Source: Rhodopila sp. (GTDB lineage: Bacteria; Pseudomonadota; Alphaproteobacteria; Acetobacterales; Acetobacteraceae). From it: DNA of 35,268 nucleotides. Numbering within the stretch: position 1 is the first letter of the stretch; every line of letters begins with the position of its first letter. Positions 13,854 to 22,454 of this stretch are shown here, piece by piece. Where the stretch lies: the NCBI GenBank assembly GCA_031291715.1, contig JARLIN010000315.1, positions 1 to 35,268 of the forward strand. Direction: 5' to 3'. The notes below the pieces were generated by a model that searched no databases, was not told the origin of the DNA, and saw nothing but the letters and a program-made list of their open reading frames with translations. A program made the translations under genes and the position numbers.

Positions 13854-14429
13854 GTGAAAGTTCTGCTGGCCGACGACGATGCCGAACGGGCCGGTGCCAT
13901 CGCGCGCATCCTCGCCGCCGACGCCGGGCTGAGGGTCGTGCGCCTCAAGCCCGGCGAGTCACTGGCCGACGCGGTCGTCTCCCTCGCCCCGGACGTGGTG
14001 CTGGTCGATATGGCACGCCCCGACCGCGACGCGCTGGACGGCATCCGTCAGGTCGTCGCCCTCAACCCACGGCCGGTGGTTCTGTTCGTGGATGAGGACG
14101 ACCCAACCTTCATGGAGGAAGCGATCAGCGCCGGCGTTTCCTCCTATAACGCGATCGGCATGCCGCCACCGGACGTCAAACCGATTCTGCGCGCCGCGGT
14201 CGCGTTGTTCCGTCGACATCAGCAGGCGCAGGATGACTTAAAGCATGCCCAGGGACGCCTGCAGGAGCGCGCGATTATCGACCGGGCCAAAGCCCTGTTG
14301 ATCAAGCAGCGCCGCCTGAGTGAGCCCGACGCCTACAAGTGGCTCCGCCGCACCGCCATGAGCAGTGCTCGGCGTATCATTGACGTCGCGAACGAACTCA
14401 TAAGGGATATGGAAGGGAGCGCGGGATGA
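13854..14429 (+). CDS. nasT: NasT-type ANTAR antitermination regulator
   Basis: RNA-binding regulator that lets transcription proceed into nitrate/nitrite assimilation genes when nitrate is present. The 191 residues comprise a receiver-like N-terminal domain (about 1-125, acidic pocket DDD near residue 6 and LVDM further on), a helical linker, and a C-terminal ANTAR domain (about 130-190: RLQERAIIDRAKALLIKQRRLSEPDAYKWLRRTAM). The start is GTG, with no strong ribosome site, 25 bases after the predicted sigma-54 transcript start. Its stop overlaps the nasS ATG by four bases. The likely RNA target, two hexaloop hairpins, lies in the nasA leader downstream of nasS. Confidence 0.93.
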   Translation: MKVLLADDDAERAGAIARILAADAGLRVVRLKPGESLADAVVSLAPDVVLVDMARPDRDALDGIRQVVALNPRPVVLFVDEDDPTFMEEAISAGVSSYNAIGMPPPDVKPILRAAVALFRRHQQAQDDLKHAQGRLQERAIIDRAKALLIKQRRLSEPDAYKWLRRTAMSSARRIIDVANELIRDMEGSAG

Positions 14430-15523
14430 GCAAGCCGATCCGCGTCGGGCTGCTGAGACTGGTTGATAGCGCCCCCGTCATCATCGCCGAAGCCGATGGG
14501 CTGTTCCGCCAGCACGGCCTCGAGGTCCAAATCAGCATCGAGCCGTCATGGTCTAACATCGCCGATAAGCTGACGTATGGCGTCCTGGATGCCGCGGTGA
14601 TGCTGCCACCATTGGCGCTCGCGGCCTGCGCCGGGTTGCGAGGACCAAAAGCCCGCCTGGTGGTGCCAATGTCGCTCAGTCAGGGCGGCAATGCCATCGT
14701 GGTGAGCCACGACGCCGCCAAGAGCCTGACGGCGGGCTGTTCACAGCCTCGGCTTCGCGTTCTGGAATGGCTCAAAGCCCAACAGGCTCGGCCTCGTTTC
14801 GCGGTGGTGCACGCCTTCTCCACACATAATCTCCTGCTGCGTTATTGGCTGGCATCCGGCGGCGCCGATCCGGACCGCGATATCGAAACCGTCGTCATTC
14901 CCCCAGAAAATGTGGTCGAGGCTCTCGCCGCGGGACGCATCACCGGCTTCTGCGCGGGCGCCCCATGGGGGGATGTGGCAGAGCGTCAGAACGCCGGACG
15001 CATCTTGATCGGCACCTCGGTGATCTGGCCGTTCCATCCGGAGAAATGTCTGTGCGTCGGGGAAGCCTGGGCCGAAGCCAATCCTGATCTTCTGCACCAT
15101 CTTCTCTGCGCCGTGCTGCGCGCCCAGATCCGCTGCGACCGGCCGGAGGAAGCGCCGGCGATTGCGCGCTTATTGGCTGATCCGGACGGCCTGCGGTTGC
15201 CGGAGGAAGCCAGCAGAGCGGCGCTGCCGGGCGGATCGGGGGCTGAGTTGATTCGATTCCATACCAGGGAAGCGTGGTTCCCTGCGCGAGCCCACGCGGT
15301 CTGGTTCCTCGGCCAGATGCGGCGTTGGCGCTGGCTGGATGAGCAAACCGATCTCGAAGGTTTAGCGGCGCGGGTTTATCGGCCGGATCTCTTGGCTTCG
15401 GCCGTGGATGCAGAAGGCCTTTATCCCGCAGCCAGCCTGCCGTCACTCGAGGGGACGGCGATGCTGCCACTGCCCGATGATGATGAATTTGCACCCAATA
15501 TGCATGGACTATCGAGACGATAA
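14426..15523 (+). CDS. nasS: NasS nitrate/nitrite sensor (CmpA/NrtA-like, cytoplasmic)
   Basis: Binds nitrate or nitrite and holds NasT inactive when ligand is absent. The 365 residues form a type-2 periplasmic-binding fold like NrtA/CmpA (IRVGLLRLVDSAPVIIAEADGLF at the start, then GVLDAAVMLPPLALA). There is no signal peptide or lipobox, so it is cytoplasmic, as expected for a sensor rather than a transport component. It is translationally coupled to nasT, the arrangement seen in Paracoccus and Azotobacter. It could be mistaken for an ABC transporter binding protein, but no nitrate ABC permease or ATPase genes are adjacent. Confidence 0.93.
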   Translation: MSKPIRVGLLRLVDSAPVIIAEADGLFRQHGLEVQISIEPSWSNIADKLTYGVLDAAVMLPPLALAACAGLRGPKARLVVPMSLSQGGNAIVVSHDAAKSLTAGCSQPRLRVLEWLKAQQARPRFAVVHAFSTHNLLLRYWLASGGADPDRDIETVVIPPENVVEALAAGRITGFCAGAPWGDVAERQNAGRILIGTSVIWPFHPEKCLCVGEAWAEANPDLLHHLLCAVLRAQIRCDRPEEAPAIARLLADPDGLRLPEEASRAALPGGSGAELIRFHTREAWFPARAHAVWFLGQMRRWRWLDEQTDLEGLAARVYRPDLLASAVDAEGLYPAASLPSLEGTAMLPLPDDDEFAPNMHGLSRR

Positions 15524-15600
15524 CTCCATATCACCTATAATATATGCATATTGATCCTACTATAATCGTTTAATGGCTATACGTTAGGCATAGCGCTTGC
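15524..15600. promoter_or_regulatory. AT-rich island upstream of the nasA promoter
   Basis: A strikingly AT-rich stretch in a GC-rich window, with ATATGCATAT (a perfect 10-base palindrome at 15542-15551) and several TATAAT-like words. It lies about 70-145 bases upstream of the predicted sigma-54 start. There it could bend DNA or bind IHF between an NtrC enhancer and the promoter. No convincing IHF or NtrC site was found, so the role is inferred from position only. Confidence 0.4.
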
Positions 15601-15641
15601 CAGCATCCGATTAAATCCTGCGCACATCAGCACCATGAACT

Positions 15642-15657
15642 TGGCATTGATCTTGCT
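15642..15657 (+). promoter_or_regulatory. Candidate sigma-54 (-24/-12) promoter for nasA-nasB-nasG-nasC-cobA
   Basis: TGGCATTGATCTTGCT fits TGGCAYRNNNNTTGCW with one mismatch. GG is at 15643-15644 and GC at 15655-15656, exactly ten bases between. The predicted start is near 15668, which places the whole two-hairpin leader inside the transcript. Confidence 0.75.
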
Positions 15658-15688
15658 GCAGGTGCTAACAGAGTTCGGGAAACTCGAC

Positions 15689-15772
15689 GGACCTGCCCAA
15701 CGAGGGGCTTGTGCCGGATCCGAAGCGCCATGCGCTTCAAGCTATCGAACGGCATGCCAACGACGGCTTGCC
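15689..15772 (+). promoter_or_regulatory. Two-hairpin NasT (ANTAR) target in the nasA leader
   Basis: Hairpin P1 (15689-15715) has stem GCCC/GGGC, an internal loop, outer pairs, and terminal hexaloop AACGAG. Hairpin P2 (15751-15772) has stem GGCATGCC/GGCTTGCC with one mismatch and hexaloop AACGAC. ANTAR proteins are known to bind paired hairpins with six-base loops having A at position 1 and G at position 4; both loops fit. Between them is a third perfect stem, GAAGCGC-CAT-GCGCTTC (15722-15738). No T-run follows P2, so the terminator it controls is not obvious; it may be Rho-dependent, or control may act at the weak nasA ribosome site. Confidence 0.75.
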
Positions 15773-15788
15773 CGCGAGTGATCCACCA

Positions 15789-16997
15789 ATGCACAAGGGC
15801 TTCCTCAAGGCCGGTCATCTGCCGACCCTCTTCGCCTCCTTCCTGTATTTCGACCTCAGCTTCATGGTCTGGGTGCTGCTTGGCCCCCTCGGCGTCGCGA
15901 TCGCCAAGGCGCTGCAGCTCGACCCCGCCCACAAAGGCCTGATGGTCGCCACGCCGGTTCTCGCCGGCGCAGCCCTCCGCGTCGTGCTCGGCCTGTTGGT
16001 TGACCGCTTCAAGGCGAAGCGGGTCGGCATCGGCGCACAGATCGTCGTCATCGCCGGGCTGCTCGCAGCCTGGGGGATCGGCATCGACAGTTTCGCCGCG
16101 ACTTTGCTGCTGGGCTGCGTTTTGGGTCTCGCCGGCGCCTCGTTCGCCGTCGCCCTACCGCTGGCATCCGCCTGGTATCCAGCCGAACACCAGGGCACAG
16201 CGCTGGGTATTGCGGGAGCAGGCAACTCGGGCACAGTCTTGGCCGCCCTGTTCGCACCGGCGATGGCCATCGCGTTCGGTTGGCAGAACGTCATCGGCCT
16301 GGCCGCGATTCCGCTCGTCCTGACGCTATGCATCTTCATTTTCGCCGCCAAGGACAGTCCCAACACGCCGGCGCCGAAGCCATTGGCCGCCTACTTCGCG
16401 CTGCTGAAGGTCGGCGACTGCTGGTGGTTCATGTTCTTCTACAGCGTGACCTTCGGTGGCTTCGTCGGCCTGGCGTCCTCGCTGACCATCTACTTAAATG
16501 ACGCTTACGGCCTCTCGCCGGTCGTCGCCGGTTACTGCACGGCTGCTGTGGTTTTCGTCGGCTCCCTCGTTCGCCCGATGGGTGGAGCGGTCGCCGACCG
16601 GGTCGGTGGTGTCCGCGCCCTGGTGGTCCTCTACACGATCGCCGCCTGTGCCTTCGCGACGATCTCCACCGGTTTGTCCACGATTTATCTGGCGATGCCT
16701 GTTTTCCTTATCGGGATGCTCGCGCTGGGGATGGGCAACGGGTCGGTATTCCAGCTCGTGCCGCAGCGCTTCAGGCGCGAAATCGGCGTCATGACCGGCC
16801 TGGTCGGCATGAGTGGCGGCGTCGGCGGGTTCTATCTCGCCTCCAGCCTCGGCTACTCGAAGCAGATGACCGGAAGCTACGGGGCCGGGTTCCTGGTCTT
16901 TGCCGTGCTGGCGGCCCTGGCTCTCGTCGGCGTCAGCGGCGTGCGCCGGCGGTGGAGCACCACCTGGGGTGAGCTCTACGGCGCGGCTCGGGTCTGA
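15789..16997 (+). CDS. nasA: NasA nitrate/nitrite transporter (MFS, NNP family)
   Basis: Inner-membrane transporter bringing nitrate (possibly nitrite) into the cell. 402 residues with about 12 membrane helices. NNP-family nitrate signatures are visible as GIAGAGNSGTVLAALF and GLVGMSGGVGGFYL. The ORF track starts at a GTG at 15711, but that codon lies inside leader hairpin P1. The ATG at 15789 gives MHKGFLKAGHLPTLFASFLYFDLSFMVWVLLGPLG, the usual family N terminus. The ribosome site is weak (GCGAGTGA). It begins the structural operon, with nasB 14 bases downstream. Confidence 0.92.
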   Translation: MHKGFLKAGHLPTLFASFLYFDLSFMVWVLLGPLGVAIAKALQLDPAHKGLMVATPVLAGAALRVVLGLLVDRFKAKRVGIGAQIVVIAGLLAAWGIGIDSFAATLLLGCVLGLAGASFAVALPLASAWYPAEHQGTALGIAGAGNSGTVLAALFAPAMAIAFGWQNVIGLAAIPLVLTLCIFIFAAKDSPNTPAPKPLAAYFALLKVGDCWWFMFFYSVTFGGFVGLASSLTIYLNDAYGLSPVVAGYCTAAVVFVGSLVRPMGGAVADRVGGVRALVVLYTIAACAFATISTGLSTIYLAMPVFLIGMLALGMGNGSVFQLVPQRFRREIGVMTGLVGMSGGVGGFYLASSLGYSKQMTGSYGAGFLVFAVLAALALVGVSGVRRRWSTTWGELYGAARV

Positions 16998-17011: not shown

Positions 17012-19453
17012 ATGAACATGATCGCTCCCCGCCGTTCCCGCCTGATCCTGGTCGGGAACGGCATGGCCGGGGTGCGCGCCCTGGAAGAAATCCTGAGCCG
17101 CGCACCGCATGAATTCTCGATCACCGTGTTCGGCGCGGAGCCGCACGGCAACTACAACCGCATCATGCTGTCGCCCGTACTTGCCGGGGAAAAGACGTTC
17201 GAGGCAATCACGACCCATCCACGGTCATGGTATGAGGAGAACGGTATCGAACTGATCACCGGTGAACAGGTCGTCGGGATCGACCGCGTTGCGAAGACTG
17301 TGACGGGTGAGTTGGGAACCACACGTCCCTATGACATGCTGCTCCTGGCCACGGGATCCAACCCCGTGATCATTCCGGTCCCCGGCCATAAACTGAGCGG
17401 CGTCATAGGATTCCGCGACATCGCCGATGTCGATACGATGCTGGCGGCAAGCAAATCCGGCAAACATGCCGTCGTCATTGGCGGCGGCCTGCTCGGCCTG
17501 GAGGCCGCCAACGGCCTGGCGCGGAACGGCATGGACACCACCGTGCTGCATCTGATGCCGACGCTGATGGAACGGCAATTGGATCCGGTCTCGGCCGAGC
17601 TGTTGAAGGCCGACCTGGGCTCCCGCGGCATCAAGGTCATTACCGAGGCAAATACCAAGGCGATCCTGGGCGATGAGCGTGTCGAAGGCGTCGAACTCGC
17701 TGACGGTACACGCCTGGCGGCTGATATCGTGGTTATGGCGGCGGGCATCCGTCCCAATATCGCGCTGGCCAAAGAGTGCGGACTGGCCTGCGGGCGCGGT
17801 GTCCGGGTCGATGACGGCATGCTGACCAGCGATCCGGCGATCTACGCGGTGGGCGAGTGCGTGGAGCATCGCGGTGCGGTGTTTGGACTGGTCGCCCCGC
17901 TGTATGAAATGGCGAAGATCGTCGCTGACAGGGTCACACAGACCGCCGACAGCGACTATGTGCCGGCAGTAACCGGGACCCGCCTGAAAGTAACCGGCAT
18001 CGACATGTTCTCGGCCGGTGATTTCATGGGGGACGAGAACACCGACGATGTGGTGTTCCGCGATGCCGCCCGCGGCGTGCATAAGAAACTGGTGATCCGC
18101 GACGAAAAGCTTATCGGCGCCGTGCTGTACGGCGAGGCACGCGACAGCGCGTGGTATTTCGACCTGATCCGCAATGGAACCGACATTTCCGCGCTGCGCG
18201 ATACGCTGGTCTTCGGACCTGCCGCCGGCACCGGCGGCGAGGCACTGGGTGTCGAAGCACTGCCGGACACAGCGGAAATTTGTGGCTGCAACGGTGTCAG
18301 CAAAGGCACGATCCTGACGGCAATCAGCAAGTTCAAGCTGGCCACGGTCGATCAGGTCCGGTCGCGCACGAAGGCCTCCGCTTCATGCGGAAGCTGCACC
18401 TGCCAGGTGGAGAGCCTGCTGGCCCACGCCCTCGGCGGCGACTACGACGCGACGCCGAAGGTCAAAGCGGTCTGCAAGTGCACAACGGTCGGACACGATA
18501 CGGTGCGCAAGGCGATCCTGGCACAGAAGCTGAAGACCATTCCGGCGGTGATGCAAGCGATGGGCTGGACAACGCCCGATGGCTGCGCGAGCTGCCGTCC
18601 CGCGCTGAACTACTATCTGCTTTGCGCGTGGCCGGGCGAATACGTGGACGATTCCCGGTCACGCTTCGTCAACGAGCGGATGCACGCGAACATCCAGAAA
18701 GACGGTACCCACTCCGTCGTGCCACGCATGTGGGGCGGCGTGACGACCTCCGCTGAGCTGCGGGCAATCGCGGACGTGGTGGACAGGCATCAGATTCCGA
18801 CGGTGAAGGTGACCGGCGGCCAGCGGATCGACCTGTTGGGTGTACGTAAGGAGCAACTGCCGGAAGTCTGGCGCGATCTGAACGCGGCCGGCATGGTTTC
18901 GGGTCACGCCTACGGCAAGGCGCTGCGCACGGTGAAGACCTGCGTTGGCTCCGAATGGTGCCGCTTCGGCACGCAGGATTCCACTGGGATGGGGATCGCG
19001 CTGGAAAAAATGACCTGGGGATCGTGGACACCGCACAAGACCAAGATGGCCGTGTCTGGCTGTCCGCGGAATTGCGCCGAAGCGACCATCAAGGATTTCG
19101 GCGTGATCGCCACCGAGAGCGGCTGGGACCTTTATGTCGGCGGCAATGGCGGCATCAAGGTGCGGGTAACCGACCTGCTTGCAAAAGTAACGACCGAGGA
19201 CGAGGTGCTGGAGTACGCCGCCGCGTTCATGCAGGTCTATCGCGAAGAAGCCTGGTATCTGGAACGCACCGCACCGTGGGTTGAACGCGTCGGCATCGAC
19301 TATGTCCGCGCCCGGCTGAGCGATGCGAGCGGCCGTAAATTGTTGCAAGGTCGTTTCGTGGAAGATCAGCGCTATGCGCAGGCCGATCCGTGGGCCGAAC
19401 GGGCGGCGGGTACCGATGCGCATGAGTTCCGCGCCCTGGCGACGGTGGAGTAA
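17012..19453 (+). CDS. nasB: Assimilatory nitrite reductase large subunit (NasB/NirB)
   Basis: Reduces nitrite to ammonium with NAD(P)H in the cytoplasm. The 813 residues comprise an FAD/NAD(P)-binding half (about 1-400; GNGMAGVRALEEIL, GGGLLGLEAANGLA). Two BFD-like [2Fe-2S] segments follow: ICGCNGV (C424, C426) with CGSC (from C459), then AVCKC...CASC. Last is the siroheme/[4Fe-4S] nitrite-reductase domain, with CVGSEWC (C644, C650) and CPRNC (C684, C688). In Paracoccus NasB also passes electrons from NADH to nitrate reductase through NasG, and the gene order here is the same. nasG starts 5 bases after its stop. Confidence 0.96.
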   Translation: MNMIAPRRSRLILVGNGMAGVRALEEILSRAPHEFSITVFGAEPHGNYNRIMLSPVLAGEKTFEAITTHPRSWYEENGIELITGEQVVGIDRVAKTVTGELGTTRPYDMLLLATGSNPVIIPVPGHKLSGVIGFRDIADVDTMLAASKSGKHAVVIGGGLLGLEAANGLARNGMDTTVLHLMPTLMERQLDPVSAELLKADLGSRGIKVITEANTKAILGDERVEGVELADGTRLAADIVVMAAGIRPNIALAKECGLACGRGVRVDDGMLTSDPAIYAVGECVEHRGAVFGLVAPLYEMAKIVADRVTQTADSDYVPAVTGTRLKVTGIDMFSAGDFMGDENTDDVVFRDAARGVHKKLVIRDEKLIGAVLYGEARDSAWYFDLIRNGTDISALRDTLVFGPAAGTGGEALGVEALPDTAEICGCNGVSKGTILTAISKFKLATVDQVRSRTKASASCGSCTCQVESLLAHALGGDYDATPKVKAVCKCTTVGHDTVRKAILAQKLKTIPAVMQAMGWTTPDGCASCRPALNYYLLCAWPGEYVDDSRSRFVNERMHANIQKDGTHSVVPRMWGGVTTSAELRAIADVVDRHQIPTVKVTGGQRIDLLGVRKEQLPEVWRDLNAAGMVSGHAYGKALRTVKTCVGSEWCRFGTQDSTGMGIALEKMTWGSWTPHKTKMAVSGCPRNCAEATIKDFGVIATESGWDLYVGGNGGIKVRVTDLLAKVTTEDEVLEYAAAFMQVYREEAWYLERTAPWVERVGIDYVRARLSDASGRKLLQGRFVEDQRYAQADPWAERAAGTDAHEFRALATVE

Positions 19454-19458
19454 GCGTC

Positions 19459-19788
19459 ATGGATGGGGCTATATCCGTGTGGATGGATGTCGGACAGCTG
19501 GACGACATCCCCCGGCTTGGTTCGCGCGTCGTCACGACGCCGGCGATCGACATCGCGTTGTTCCGGACAGCGGACGATCGTGTTTTCGCGCTGCATGACA
19601 GATGTCCTCACAAGGCGGGCAGGCTGTCGCAGGGCATCGTGCACAGTGAATCCGTGACCTGCCCGCTGCATAACTGGGTCATCGGCCTGGCCGATGGGCA
19701 GGCGAAGGAGCCGGATGAAGGCTGTGCCCGCACCGTTCCGGTTCGGCTGGAGGATCGGCGCATCCTGCTGGCGGTGGGCGGAGCATGA
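19459..19788 (+). CDS. nasG: NirD/NasG Rieske-type [2Fe-2S] protein
   Basis: Small electron carrier paired with nitrite reductase, 109 residues. A full Rieske ligand set is visible: C49-P-H51 and C68-P-L-H71 (motifs RCPHKAG and TCPLHNW). Some NirD proteins, such as that of E. coli, lack these ligands; their presence fits the NasG role of carrying electrons from NasB to NasC. The ATG at 19459 has GGAG upstream. Its stop overlaps the nasC ATG by four bases. Confidence 0.94.
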   Translation: MDGAISVWMDVGQLDDIPRLGSRVVTTPAIDIALFRTADDRVFALHDRCPHKAGRLSQGIVHSESVTCPLHNWVIGLADGQAKEPDEGCARTVPVRLEDRRILLAVGGA

Positions 19789-22454
19789 CCGCGCCGGTCC
19801 ACACCACCTGTCCGTATTGTGGGGTCGGGTGCGGTGTGGTGGTTCAGTCGGACGAAACAATCAAGGCGGATGCGGTGCATCCGTCCAATCGAGGGCGGCT
19901 GTGCTCCAAGGGTGCCGCGCTCGGTGCCACGCTGGATGACAGCACACGGCTGACAGTACCGATGGTGCATGGGCAGGCAACAAGCTGGGATGATGCGCTC
20001 GATTTGGTCGCGGAGCGGTTTCGGGAAACCATCGCGATGCATGGTCCGGACAGTGTGGCGTTCTATGTCTCCGGCCAGTGCCTGACGGAAGATTATTACG
20101 TTGCCAACAAACTGATGAAGGGTTTCATCGGCAGCGCCAATATCGATACGAATTCGCGCCTGTGCATGGCGTCCTCGGTTGCTGGCCATGTTCGTGCCTT
20201 CGGTGAGGACGTGGTTCCCGGGGTCTATCAGGACTGGGAAGAAGCCGATCTGGTGGTGCTGGTCGGTAGCAACGCGGCGTGGTGCCATCCGGTCCTGCAT
20301 CAGCGGCTGCAGGCGGCCCGGGTGGCGCAAGGGACGAAGGTCGTTGTGCTGGATCCTCGCCGTACTGCGACCGCGGAAGCCGCTGATTTGCACGTGCCTC
20401 TGGCGCCAGGCAGCGATGTCGCGCTTTTCAACGGTCTGCTGGCGTATTTGCATCGTGCCGGAAAGGTCGACACCGCCTGGGTCGAGCGGCATACCACGGG
20501 GCTCGCCGAGGCCCTGAAGGCCGCTTCGTCCTCCCCCGGCATGACGAGGGACGAGACCCAGCTGGAATCCATCGCTGCCGAATGCGGCATCGACCCCGAG
20601 GCGCTGGAAACATTCTTCGATATGTTCGCGCGGACCGAGCGGGTGATGACGGTCTTCTCGCAGGGCGTGAACCAGTCCTCCACCGGGACCGACAAGGTCA
20701 ACGCGATCATCAATTGCCATCTGGCTACGGGACGGATCGGCCGGCCTGGAACCGGACCGTTCTCCGTCACCGGTCAGCCCAATGCAATGGGCGGCCGCGA
20801 GGTCGGTGGGCTGGCCAACCAGCTTGCCGCGCATATGCGCTTCAACGATCCGTTCGACCGGGCCGCGTTGCAGGCATTCTGGCAGTCCCCCACGCTGGCG
20901 CCGGCGCCCGGCCTGAAAGCCGTCGATCTGTTCGATGCCGTGCTGGATGGCCGGGTCAAAGCGCTGTGGATCGTCGCGACCAACCCAGCCGCCAGCATGC
21001 CCCGCGCCGATCGGGTGCGGGCCGCGCTGTCCGCTTGCCCGTTCGTGGTGGTGTCCGATTGCTGGCCGACCGATACGTCCACGCTTGCTCATGTCGTGCT
21101 GCCGGCGGCGGGTTGGGGCGAGAAAGACGGCACCGTCACCAACTCCGAACGCCGCATCTCCCGCCAGCGCGCTTTCCGCTCCGCCCCCGGTCAGGCGCGG
21201 CCCGATTGGTGGCAATTCGCCGAAGTCGGGCGGCGCATGGGATGGCCGGACGCTTTCGCCTGGCAGACCCCGGCCGCCGTGTTCCGCGAGCATGCCGCCC
21301 TGTCCGGCCACGCCAATGGCGGCAAGCGGGTGTTCGACATCAGCGCCATGAAAGATGTGGACGACGCTGGATACGAGGCGATGCAGCCATTCCGCTGGCC
21401 GCTCCCAGCGGGCGCCTCCAGCGAGGGCGGACGGCTGTTCGCGCAGGGCGGCTTCCCGACGCCAGACGGTCGCGCACGCTTCGTTCCGACCCGCTATCAG
21501 GAGCCGCCTCGGGCAGGAAAGCAGGGGTTGTTGCTGAACACCGGCCGCGTGCGGGATCAGTGGCACACCATGACCCGCACCGGTCTCGCGCCCTCGCTGA
21601 TGAGCCACACGCCGGAGCCGGTGCTGACGATCCACCCGACGGACGCGGCGGCGGCTGGCATCGAACAAGGCGCTTTGACCCGTGTCTCGACCGCCGAGGG
21701 CGAGGTTCTGCTGCGCGCTGATCTTCGCCACACGCAGCGCCACGGTGAAGTGTTCGCGCCGATGCACTGGACCGACCAGTTCGCCTCTACCGGCCCCATC
21801 GGACGGGTGGTCGGCGCGAAGCCGGACCCGGTCTCGGGGCAGCCCGAGCTGAAGGCGACCGCCGCCACGGTGACCCCAGCGCTGGTCCACTTCCACGGAC
21901 TGCTGCTGCGGCGCGCTGGCGGACCGCTTCCCGACATCTGCCATTGGGTCCGCGTGCCGGTCACCGAAGGCCAGTTGTACCGGTTGGCCGGATTGCGGCC
22001 GATGCCGGCGGGTGACGACCTGACCCGCTTCGCCGCCGCTCTGCTCGATCTTCCGGCCGGGACCGACTGGCTGGAAGTTTCCGACGTTCGCCGAGGCATG
22101 CTGCGCGTGGCGGCGGTCGTCGACGGCGCTCTCGAAGCCTGCCTTTTCCTCGCACGCGACGCCGCTTCCCTTCCGAACGAGGCTGCCATCAGCCCGATGC
22201 TGGGGGCGCCGGTGCCGGACTCCGCCCGGGCGAAGATCCTGGCGGGACGGATGTATGACGCGACGGCGGCCGAGGGCCCCAAGGTCTGCACCTGTTTCGG
22301 CGTGACTCGCGATGCGATCCGCCACGCCGTTGCCACCCATCGGCTGGGGACGGTCAAGGAGATCGGCGTTCTGCTGCACGCCGGCACCAATTGCGGTTCC
22401 TGCATTCCTGAACTTGAGGAGATCCTGCGCGATGTTCGCATGCCCGCGGAGTAA
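19785..22454 (+). CDS. nasC: Assimilatory nitrate reductase catalytic subunit (NasC)
   Basis: Cytoplasmic molybdenum enzyme reducing nitrate to nitrite. The 889 residues begin with a [4Fe-4S] motif (CPYCGVGC, C9/C12/C16, and LCSKG, C40). The Mo-bisPGD catalytic domains follow, with the likely Mo-ligand Cys127 in SRLCMASSV, and then the molydopterin-dinucleotide-binding domain. A C-terminal BFD-like [2Fe-2S] domain comes last: CTCFGV (C835, C837) and NCGSC (C870, C873). This C-terminal cluster is the expected entry point for electrons from NasG. No separate NADH-dehydrogenase subunit gene is present. The start codon overlaps the nasG stop, and its end overlaps cobA by 23 bases. Confidence 0.96.
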   Translation: MTAPVHTTCPYCGVGCGVVVQSDETIKADAVHPSNRGRLCSKGAALGATLDDSTRLTVPMVHGQATSWDDALDLVAERFRETIAMHGPDSVAFYVSGQCLTEDYYVANKLMKGFIGSANIDTNSRLCMASSVAGHVRAFGEDVVPGVYQDWEEADLVVLVGSNAAWCHPVLHQRLQAARVAQGTKVVVLDPRRTATAEAADLHVPLAPGSDVALFNGLLAYLHRAGKVDTAWVERHTTGLAEALKAASSSPGMTRDETQLESIAAECGIDPEALETFFDMFARTERVMTVFSQGVNQSSTGTDKVNAIINCHLATGRIGRPGTGPFSVTGQPNAMGGREVGGLANQLAAHMRFNDPFDRAALQAFWQSPTLAPAPGLKAVDLFDAVLDGRVKALWIVATNPAASMPRADRVRAALSACPFVVVSDCWPTDTSTLAHVVLPAAGWGEKDGTVTNSERRISRQRAFRSAPGQARPDWWQFAEVGRRMGWPDAFAWQTPAAVFREHAALSGHANGGKRVFDISAMKDVDDAGYEAMQPFRWPLPAGASSEGGRLFAQGGFPTPDGRARFVPTRYQEPPRAGKQGLLLNTGRVRDQWHTMTRTGLAPSLMSHTPEPVLTIHPTDAAAAGIEQGALTRVSTAEGEVLLRADLRHTQRHGEVFAPMHWTDQFASTGPIGRVVGAKPDPVSGQPELKATAATVTPALVHFHGLLLRRAGGPLPDICHWVRVPVTEGQLYRLAGLRPMPAGDDLTRFAAALLDLPAGTDWLEVSDVRRGMLRVAAVVDGALEACLFLARDAASLPNEAAISPMLGAPVPDSARAKILAGRMYDATAAEGPKVCTCFGVTRDAIRHAVATHRLGTVKEIGVLLHAGTNCGSCIPELEEILRDVRMPAE

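Follow-up and report, generated by a model that had tools for sequence, protein, structure and literature searches.

NasR- and NasT-type proteins are textbook antiterminators. Most ANTAR RNAs do not overlap a terminator (only about 30% do), and for these, regulation at translation initiation has been proposed (Ramesh et al. 2012, PMC3369931). In actinobacteria, ANTAR RNAs often lie at the ribosome-binding site (RBS), and translational repression has been shown in mycobacteria (PMC8164766). As for the nitrate signal, NasS lets go of NasT when nitrate is present, and nas expression needs NasT (PMC5424462, PMC6759348). In the leader of the Paracoccus denitrificans nasTS-nasABGHC genes, lacZ fusions showed that mutation of hairpin HI abolished activity and that mutation of hairpin HII raised basal activity (PMC5424462).

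We describe here a leader found in a window of Rhodopila sp. DNA, by which we mean the whole stretch of 35,268 nucleotides that was analysed (contig JARLIN010000315.1). Its features are collected in Table 1. The stop of nasT is overlapped by nasS over 4 nt, and the 265 nt of non-coding sequence between nasS and nasA hold the leader; the gene order nasA-nirB-nitrate reductase is kept in sibling genomes. As in the two-hairpin RNA of Ramesh et al. (2012, PMC3369931), we find two hairpins, each with a hexanucleotide loop on a stem of 3 bp or more, an A at position 1 and a G at position 4 of both loops, a nearby ANTAR regulator (the cognate regulator being nasT), and genes of nitrogen metabolism. 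The position between nasS and nasA in a nas operon is shared with Paracoccus denitrificans (PMC5424462). There is a further likeness to the nosR leader of Bradyrhizobium diazoefficiens, where NasT released by NasS binds a hairpin of the 5' leader, as is predicted here; the mode described for nosR is interference with terminator formation, and its target genes differ from those of our locus (PMC6759348).

Table 1. Features of the leader and its surroundings, in window coordinates; hairpin loops are bracketed.
Feature	Positions	Strand	Description
nasT	13854..14429	+	Response-regulator receiver and ANTAR domain; Pfam PF03861 ANTAR, E 4e-17; PF00072, E 2e-8
nasS	14426..15523	+	Nitrate-sensor-like NMT1_2 family, NasT partner; Pfam PF13379, E 3e-68
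Sigma54-type -24/-12 promoter	15641..15657	+	TTGGCATTGATCTTGCT, GG-N10-GC; predicted start about 15668
HP0, 5' hairpin	15671..15685	+	GAGTT[CGGGA]AACTC, where the leader is predicted to begin
HP1 (P1)	15695..15708	+	GCCC[AACGAG]GGGC, hexaloop AACGAG
Middle hairpin	15722..15738	+	7 bp, GAAGCGC[CAT]GCGCTTC, between HP1 and HP2
HP2 (P2)	15751..15772	+	GGCATGCC[AACGAC]GGCTTGCC, hexaloop AACGAC, one T-T mismatch
Spacer, HP2 to ATG	15773..15788	+	16 nt; weak Shine-Dalgarno-like GAG at 15776-15778; no T-run
nasA	15789..16997	+	Nitrate/nitrite MFS transporter, 402 aa from ATG; PF07690, E 9e-37
nirB-type nitrite reductase	17012..19453	+	Next operon gene; from ORF and position
Assimilatory nitrate reductase, molybdopterin type	19785..22454	+	ORF, conserved neighbour; identity from sequence reading

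An earlier, sequence-only reading of the window had pointed to two hairpins with hexaloops AACGAG and AACGAC between nasS and nasA, and this observation stands: a degenerate pattern for the two loops matches once in the window and in none of 100 shuffles. Folded as a single sequence, the window shows no unusual stability (z = -0.58), and its minimum free energy structure lacks HP1. The case for a leader element is therefore a comparative one. Matches to Rfam in 15200-16200 (Purine on the minus strand, and mir-1005) are sub-threshold, and we set them aside as chance.

For the comparison we define the genus as the Acidisphaera/Rhodopila-like Acetobacteraceae, represented by 33 genomes; a first alignment held 13 of its leaders and a later set 23. 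A covariance model, R1, yields strong matches in 23 of the 33 genomes (10 of these 23 leaders were not used for building it), and in a search of 299 genomes of the order its matches are confined to this genus. Within the window's own genome of 6.24 Mb, R1 finds a single strong site at 113.6 bits, the sole other match having an E-value of 6.5. A second model, R2, was built from seven leaders, none of them from the window's own clade. Even with R2 the window leader ranks first in its own 6.24 Mb genome and is the only match there at E up to 1, albeit a weak one (E = 0.42); close siblings are matched at E = 4e-5 to 1e-4.

Aligning the leaders of the genus, we find that both loops are conserved and that the stems covary. 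Over the 23 leaders, A1 and A2 of the HP1 loop are present in 23/23 and G4 in 22/23, while A1, A2 and G4 of the HP2 loop are each present in 23/23; the other loop positions vary. Among the first 13 leaders, 84.9% of the HP1 and HP2 cells are paired, against 77.2% in shuffles, and nine pairs are altered on both sides, a count reached in only 1 of 500 shuffles. The covariation score of the two stems is 0.337, compared with 0.204 +/- 0.023 after shuffling, and the signal is lost when the partner is slid. HP2 taken alone has 90% of its cells paired and changes on both sides in five of its eight pairs, and RNAalifold recovers the same two helices, HP1 and HP2. Across the genus, moreover, the leader co-occurs with the nasT gene: it is present in 21 of 24 genomes with nasT, versus 2 of 9 without (Fisher p = 0.0008).

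One could suppose that the leader is a decaying relic, that NasT acts elsewhere, and that expression of nasA depends on the sigma54-type promoter alone. The unremarkable single-sequence folding would suit such a view, as would the weak preference for HP1 in some predicted ensembles. Nevertheless, across 23 diverged leaders the loop bases are near-invariant and the stems change in a compensatory way, and this, together with the co-occurrence with nasT, makes a relic very improbable. The conservation of loops and stems in the genus supports the proposal of the sequence-only reading that a target leader of the ANTAR/NasT type adjoins nasTS, and we are highly confident that the element is such a target RNA, with NasT its predicted ligand.

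Two loci depart from the usual arrangement. The window's own genome holds a second NasT-like gene (42% identity; contig C455, 687-1250), accompanied by a NasS-like fragment at a contig end; R1 gives no leader match near this gene. At one locus (L035, genome G012), the leader and nasA come immediately after nasT, and nothing in between matches nasS. NasT may escape regulation there, or NasS may be encoded elsewhere.

The linker between HP1 and HP2 contains a third stem, as had been noticed from the sequence. All 13 leaders of the first alignment have this stem in the same position, with arms that differ from one leader to another (GAAGCGC/GCGCTTC, GGGAC/GTCCC, GGAGCC/GGCTCC and others). It is weak when each leader is taken singly (p = 0.01-0.33), yet aligning all 23 leaders brings it out as a conserved helix. 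By eye, a putative hairpin like HP0 with arms changed but still complementary can be seen at the predicted 5' end of many sibling leaders. Thus, the overall layout looks like HP0-HP1-middle-HP2-AUG.

Upstream of the leader, the window carries GG-N10-GC at -24/-12 with flanks resembling TTGGCAC..TTGCT, as expected of a sigma54-type promoter. The GG-N10-GC occurs at the same place in 13/13 of the first leaders, and the consensus TTGGCACGNNNNTTGCW, also written TTGGCACG-N4-TTGCW, is matched with 0-3 mismatches in 22 of the 23 leaders (two in the window), the exception, L160, having five. The predicted leader is 121 nt long in the window and 115-126 nt long among nasA-type loci. A search for NtrC sites ahead of the sigma54-type promoter gave no convincing match. 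At the end of nasS, also upstream of that site, positions 15512-15541 hold a sigma70-like match (10/12, ending in TATAAT), which is quite possibly due to chance, with 0.4 such matches expected.

The longest open reading frame for nasA would begin at GTG 15711. The sequence-only reading had placed this codon inside hairpin 1, which is wrong: the codon begins 3 nt past the last paired base of HP1 (15708) and so lies beside the hairpin. The same reading had preferred ATG 15789 as the start, rightly so. In 9/23 leaders an in-frame stop interrupts the stretch from the predicted transcript start to the ATG; the distance from HP1 to the ATG occurs in all three frames among the 23; and in an alignment of NasA proteins, conservation starts at codon 5 of the ATG form. 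These three observations rule out the GTG call and, judged from the sequences of the relatives, the true start of nasA is ATG 15789. A start that is easily mis-called is thereby corrected.

The window leader also departs from the described systems. Compared with the RNA of Ramesh et al. (2012, PMC3369931), it has no intrinsic terminator overlapping P2, its linker of about 42 nt accommodates an extra hairpin, and 16 nt separate the end of P2 from the start codon. In Paracoccus denitrificans, HI and HII are reported to lie upstream of nasA by 137 and 91 bp and are taken to terminate transcription (PMC5424462), whereas here HP2 sits directly at the start codon, without a terminator. A terminator scan of 15500-16100 returned no terminator-like site, and no hairpin with a U-run overlaps or follows P2 ahead of the start codon. 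As far as sequence can tell, then, this leader lacks the defining feature of the attenuator subclass of ANTAR RNAs (the nasF/eutP type).

The same holds throughout the genus. Scoring a T-run as at least 6 T in 8, we find none between HP2 and the start codon in any of the 23 leaders (0/23). As a comparison set we took NasT loci from elsewhere in the class; in 31 of them a pair of A-A loops was detectable. A T-run lies within 110 nt in 27 of these 31 leaders, or 26 once L092, whose run falls in coding sequence, is discounted; the difference between 0/23 and 26/31 is highly significant (Fisher p = 9e-11). Further leaders without a T-run belong to Roseicella (L210), Plastoroseomonas (L250), a Rhodospirillaceae MAG (L193) and three further loci (L180, L091 and L092), with HP2-to-start distances of 32-53 nt. 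In the genus, by comparison, HP2 ends 14-18 nt before the ATG in 23/23 leaders, and the distance from HP1 to the ATG varies from 86 to 96 across the same leaders. The terminator thus appears to be missing from several related lineages, and most tightly in this genus. In several of the six leaders just listed, a further hairpin separates HP2 from the start codon. Seven class leaders (L111, L114, L113, L097, L137, L103 and L125) have three A1/G4 hexaloop hairpins in a row in place of the standard two, the third lying close to the terminator.

The absence of a T-run after hairpin 2 had been noted from the sequence, with the conclusion that whatever terminator is relieved is not of the standard intrinsic kind. 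The observation holds, but the conclusion presupposes a terminator, and none is visible in the sequence. Since HP2 lies 14-18 nt from the ATG genus-wide, control at, or by way of, translation initiation fits at least as well as a relieved terminator. Ordinary antitermination with an atypical terminator would require that HP2, or an alternative GC-rich stem, stop RNA polymerase without a U-tract and that NasT prevent this, as for Klebsiella nasF and Paracoccus nasA. The nas leaders under NasR/NasT control are known to work by attenuation (PMC3369931, PMC5424462, PMC6759348), and related alphaproteobacterial leaders do have terminators. We consider antitermination improbable here, however, given the lack of a T-run in all 23 leaders, the closeness of HP2 to the AUG, and the lack of both a conserved competing helix and a terminator-like match.

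If translation is the regulated step, a simple device would be a switch in secondary structure that hides or exposes the RBS. In folding models, forming HP1 and HP2 shows no tendency to open the RBS beyond that of shuffled controls: over the 23 leaders the mean change is -0.15 kcal/mol, versus -0.25 kcal/mol in shuffled sequences (p = 0.87). Nor is the RBS buried more than expected by chance over the same leaders (p = 0.89). A column scan of the 23-leader alignment for a conserved alternative helix brought out only HP2 and the middle stem; that is, the genus shows no conserved alternative pairing that would hide the RBS without P1 and P2. Forced formation of HP1 and HP2 did not consistently open the RBS, either in the first 13 leaders or in all 23, and L041, L092 and L250, each suggestive by itself, do not establish a rule for the genus. 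Most leaders could also form a lower helix, UCG/CGA, between the 5' flank of HP2 and the Shine-Dalgarno region; its columns hardly vary, so we read nothing into it. Thus, a simple secondary-structure switch is not supported by our folding models in the genus, and a protein-mediated effect or Rho remain candidates. In L092 and L250, two of the other leaders without a terminator, the 3' arm of HP2 is predicted to be able to pair with the Shine-Dalgarno region, and the modelled cost of opening the RBS falls from 12.4 to 4.8 kcal/mol in L092 and from 9.4 to 6.9 kcal/mol in L250. With this predicted pairing, a translational mode stays in play for the wider group.

Because the genus leader has no intrinsic terminator and HP2 abuts the ribosome-binding region, we regard translation initiation as the most likely mode of control. 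The sigma54-type promoter would produce a 121-nt leader of the nasA-nirB-nitrate reductase operon. By analogy with the studied NasS-NasT systems, nitrate would cause NasS to release NasT, and a NasT dimer would bind the HP1 and HP2 loops (A-A-N-G) and turn the operon on. With HP2 abutting the ribosome-binding region of nasA, the NasT-bound leader would allow more initiation at the nasA AUG; an AUG left untranslated could invite Rho polarity as a backup. That bound NasT raises initiation at the nasA AUG, possibly backed by Rho polarity, is the best explanation overall, and one that we hold at about even confidence; we infer the binding of NasT, the direction of its effect and translation as the regulated step alike. 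The reading is weakened in that a spacing fixed within one genus is partly a matter of inheritance. In the actinobacterial ANTAR RNAs at the RBS, binding represses translation (PMC8164766), whereas the nitrate logic here predicts activation; the phylum and the regulator also differ.

Five relatives (L042/L150, L044/L166, L090/L152, L155 and L167) bear on this reading, for they lack nasA and have nirB next after the leader. All five keep an ATG 15-17 nt after HP2, from which open reading frames of 20, 52, 32, 18 and 18 codons run, with little sequence in common. In four of the five, representing three lineages, the short frame overlaps the beginning of nirB as ATGA. Since nirB begins with ATGA, such an overlap would arise by chance with a probability of roughly 0.2 per lineage (a rough estimate), and alone it is weak, suggestive evidence. 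The AUG retained at a fixed distance is more telling, because an attenuator needs none and a translational device would. A retained initiating AUG before nirB would, however, also protect against Rho. Under Rho-dependent attenuation, Rho would end the untranslated leader or early nasA RNA when NasT is missing, and NasT bound to the leader would block Rho or admit ribosomes. Such a scheme accords with the missing intrinsic terminator, but a leader this short and strongly structured should be a poor loading site for Rho, and we think it rather unlikely. Returning to translational control, we put forward tentatively, as somewhat short of an even bet, that in this genus NasT activates translation initiation and not transcription antitermination, and that, in loci that lost nasA, the leader AUG has come to serve in translational coupling to nirB.

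If this is true, the terminator has been lost while both hairpins and their distance from the start codon have been kept, so that the same RNA-binding switch would be coupled to a different output. The leaders of this genus would then offer natural material for asking directly whether ANTAR RNAs of Gram-negative bacteria act on translation, as has long been suspected.
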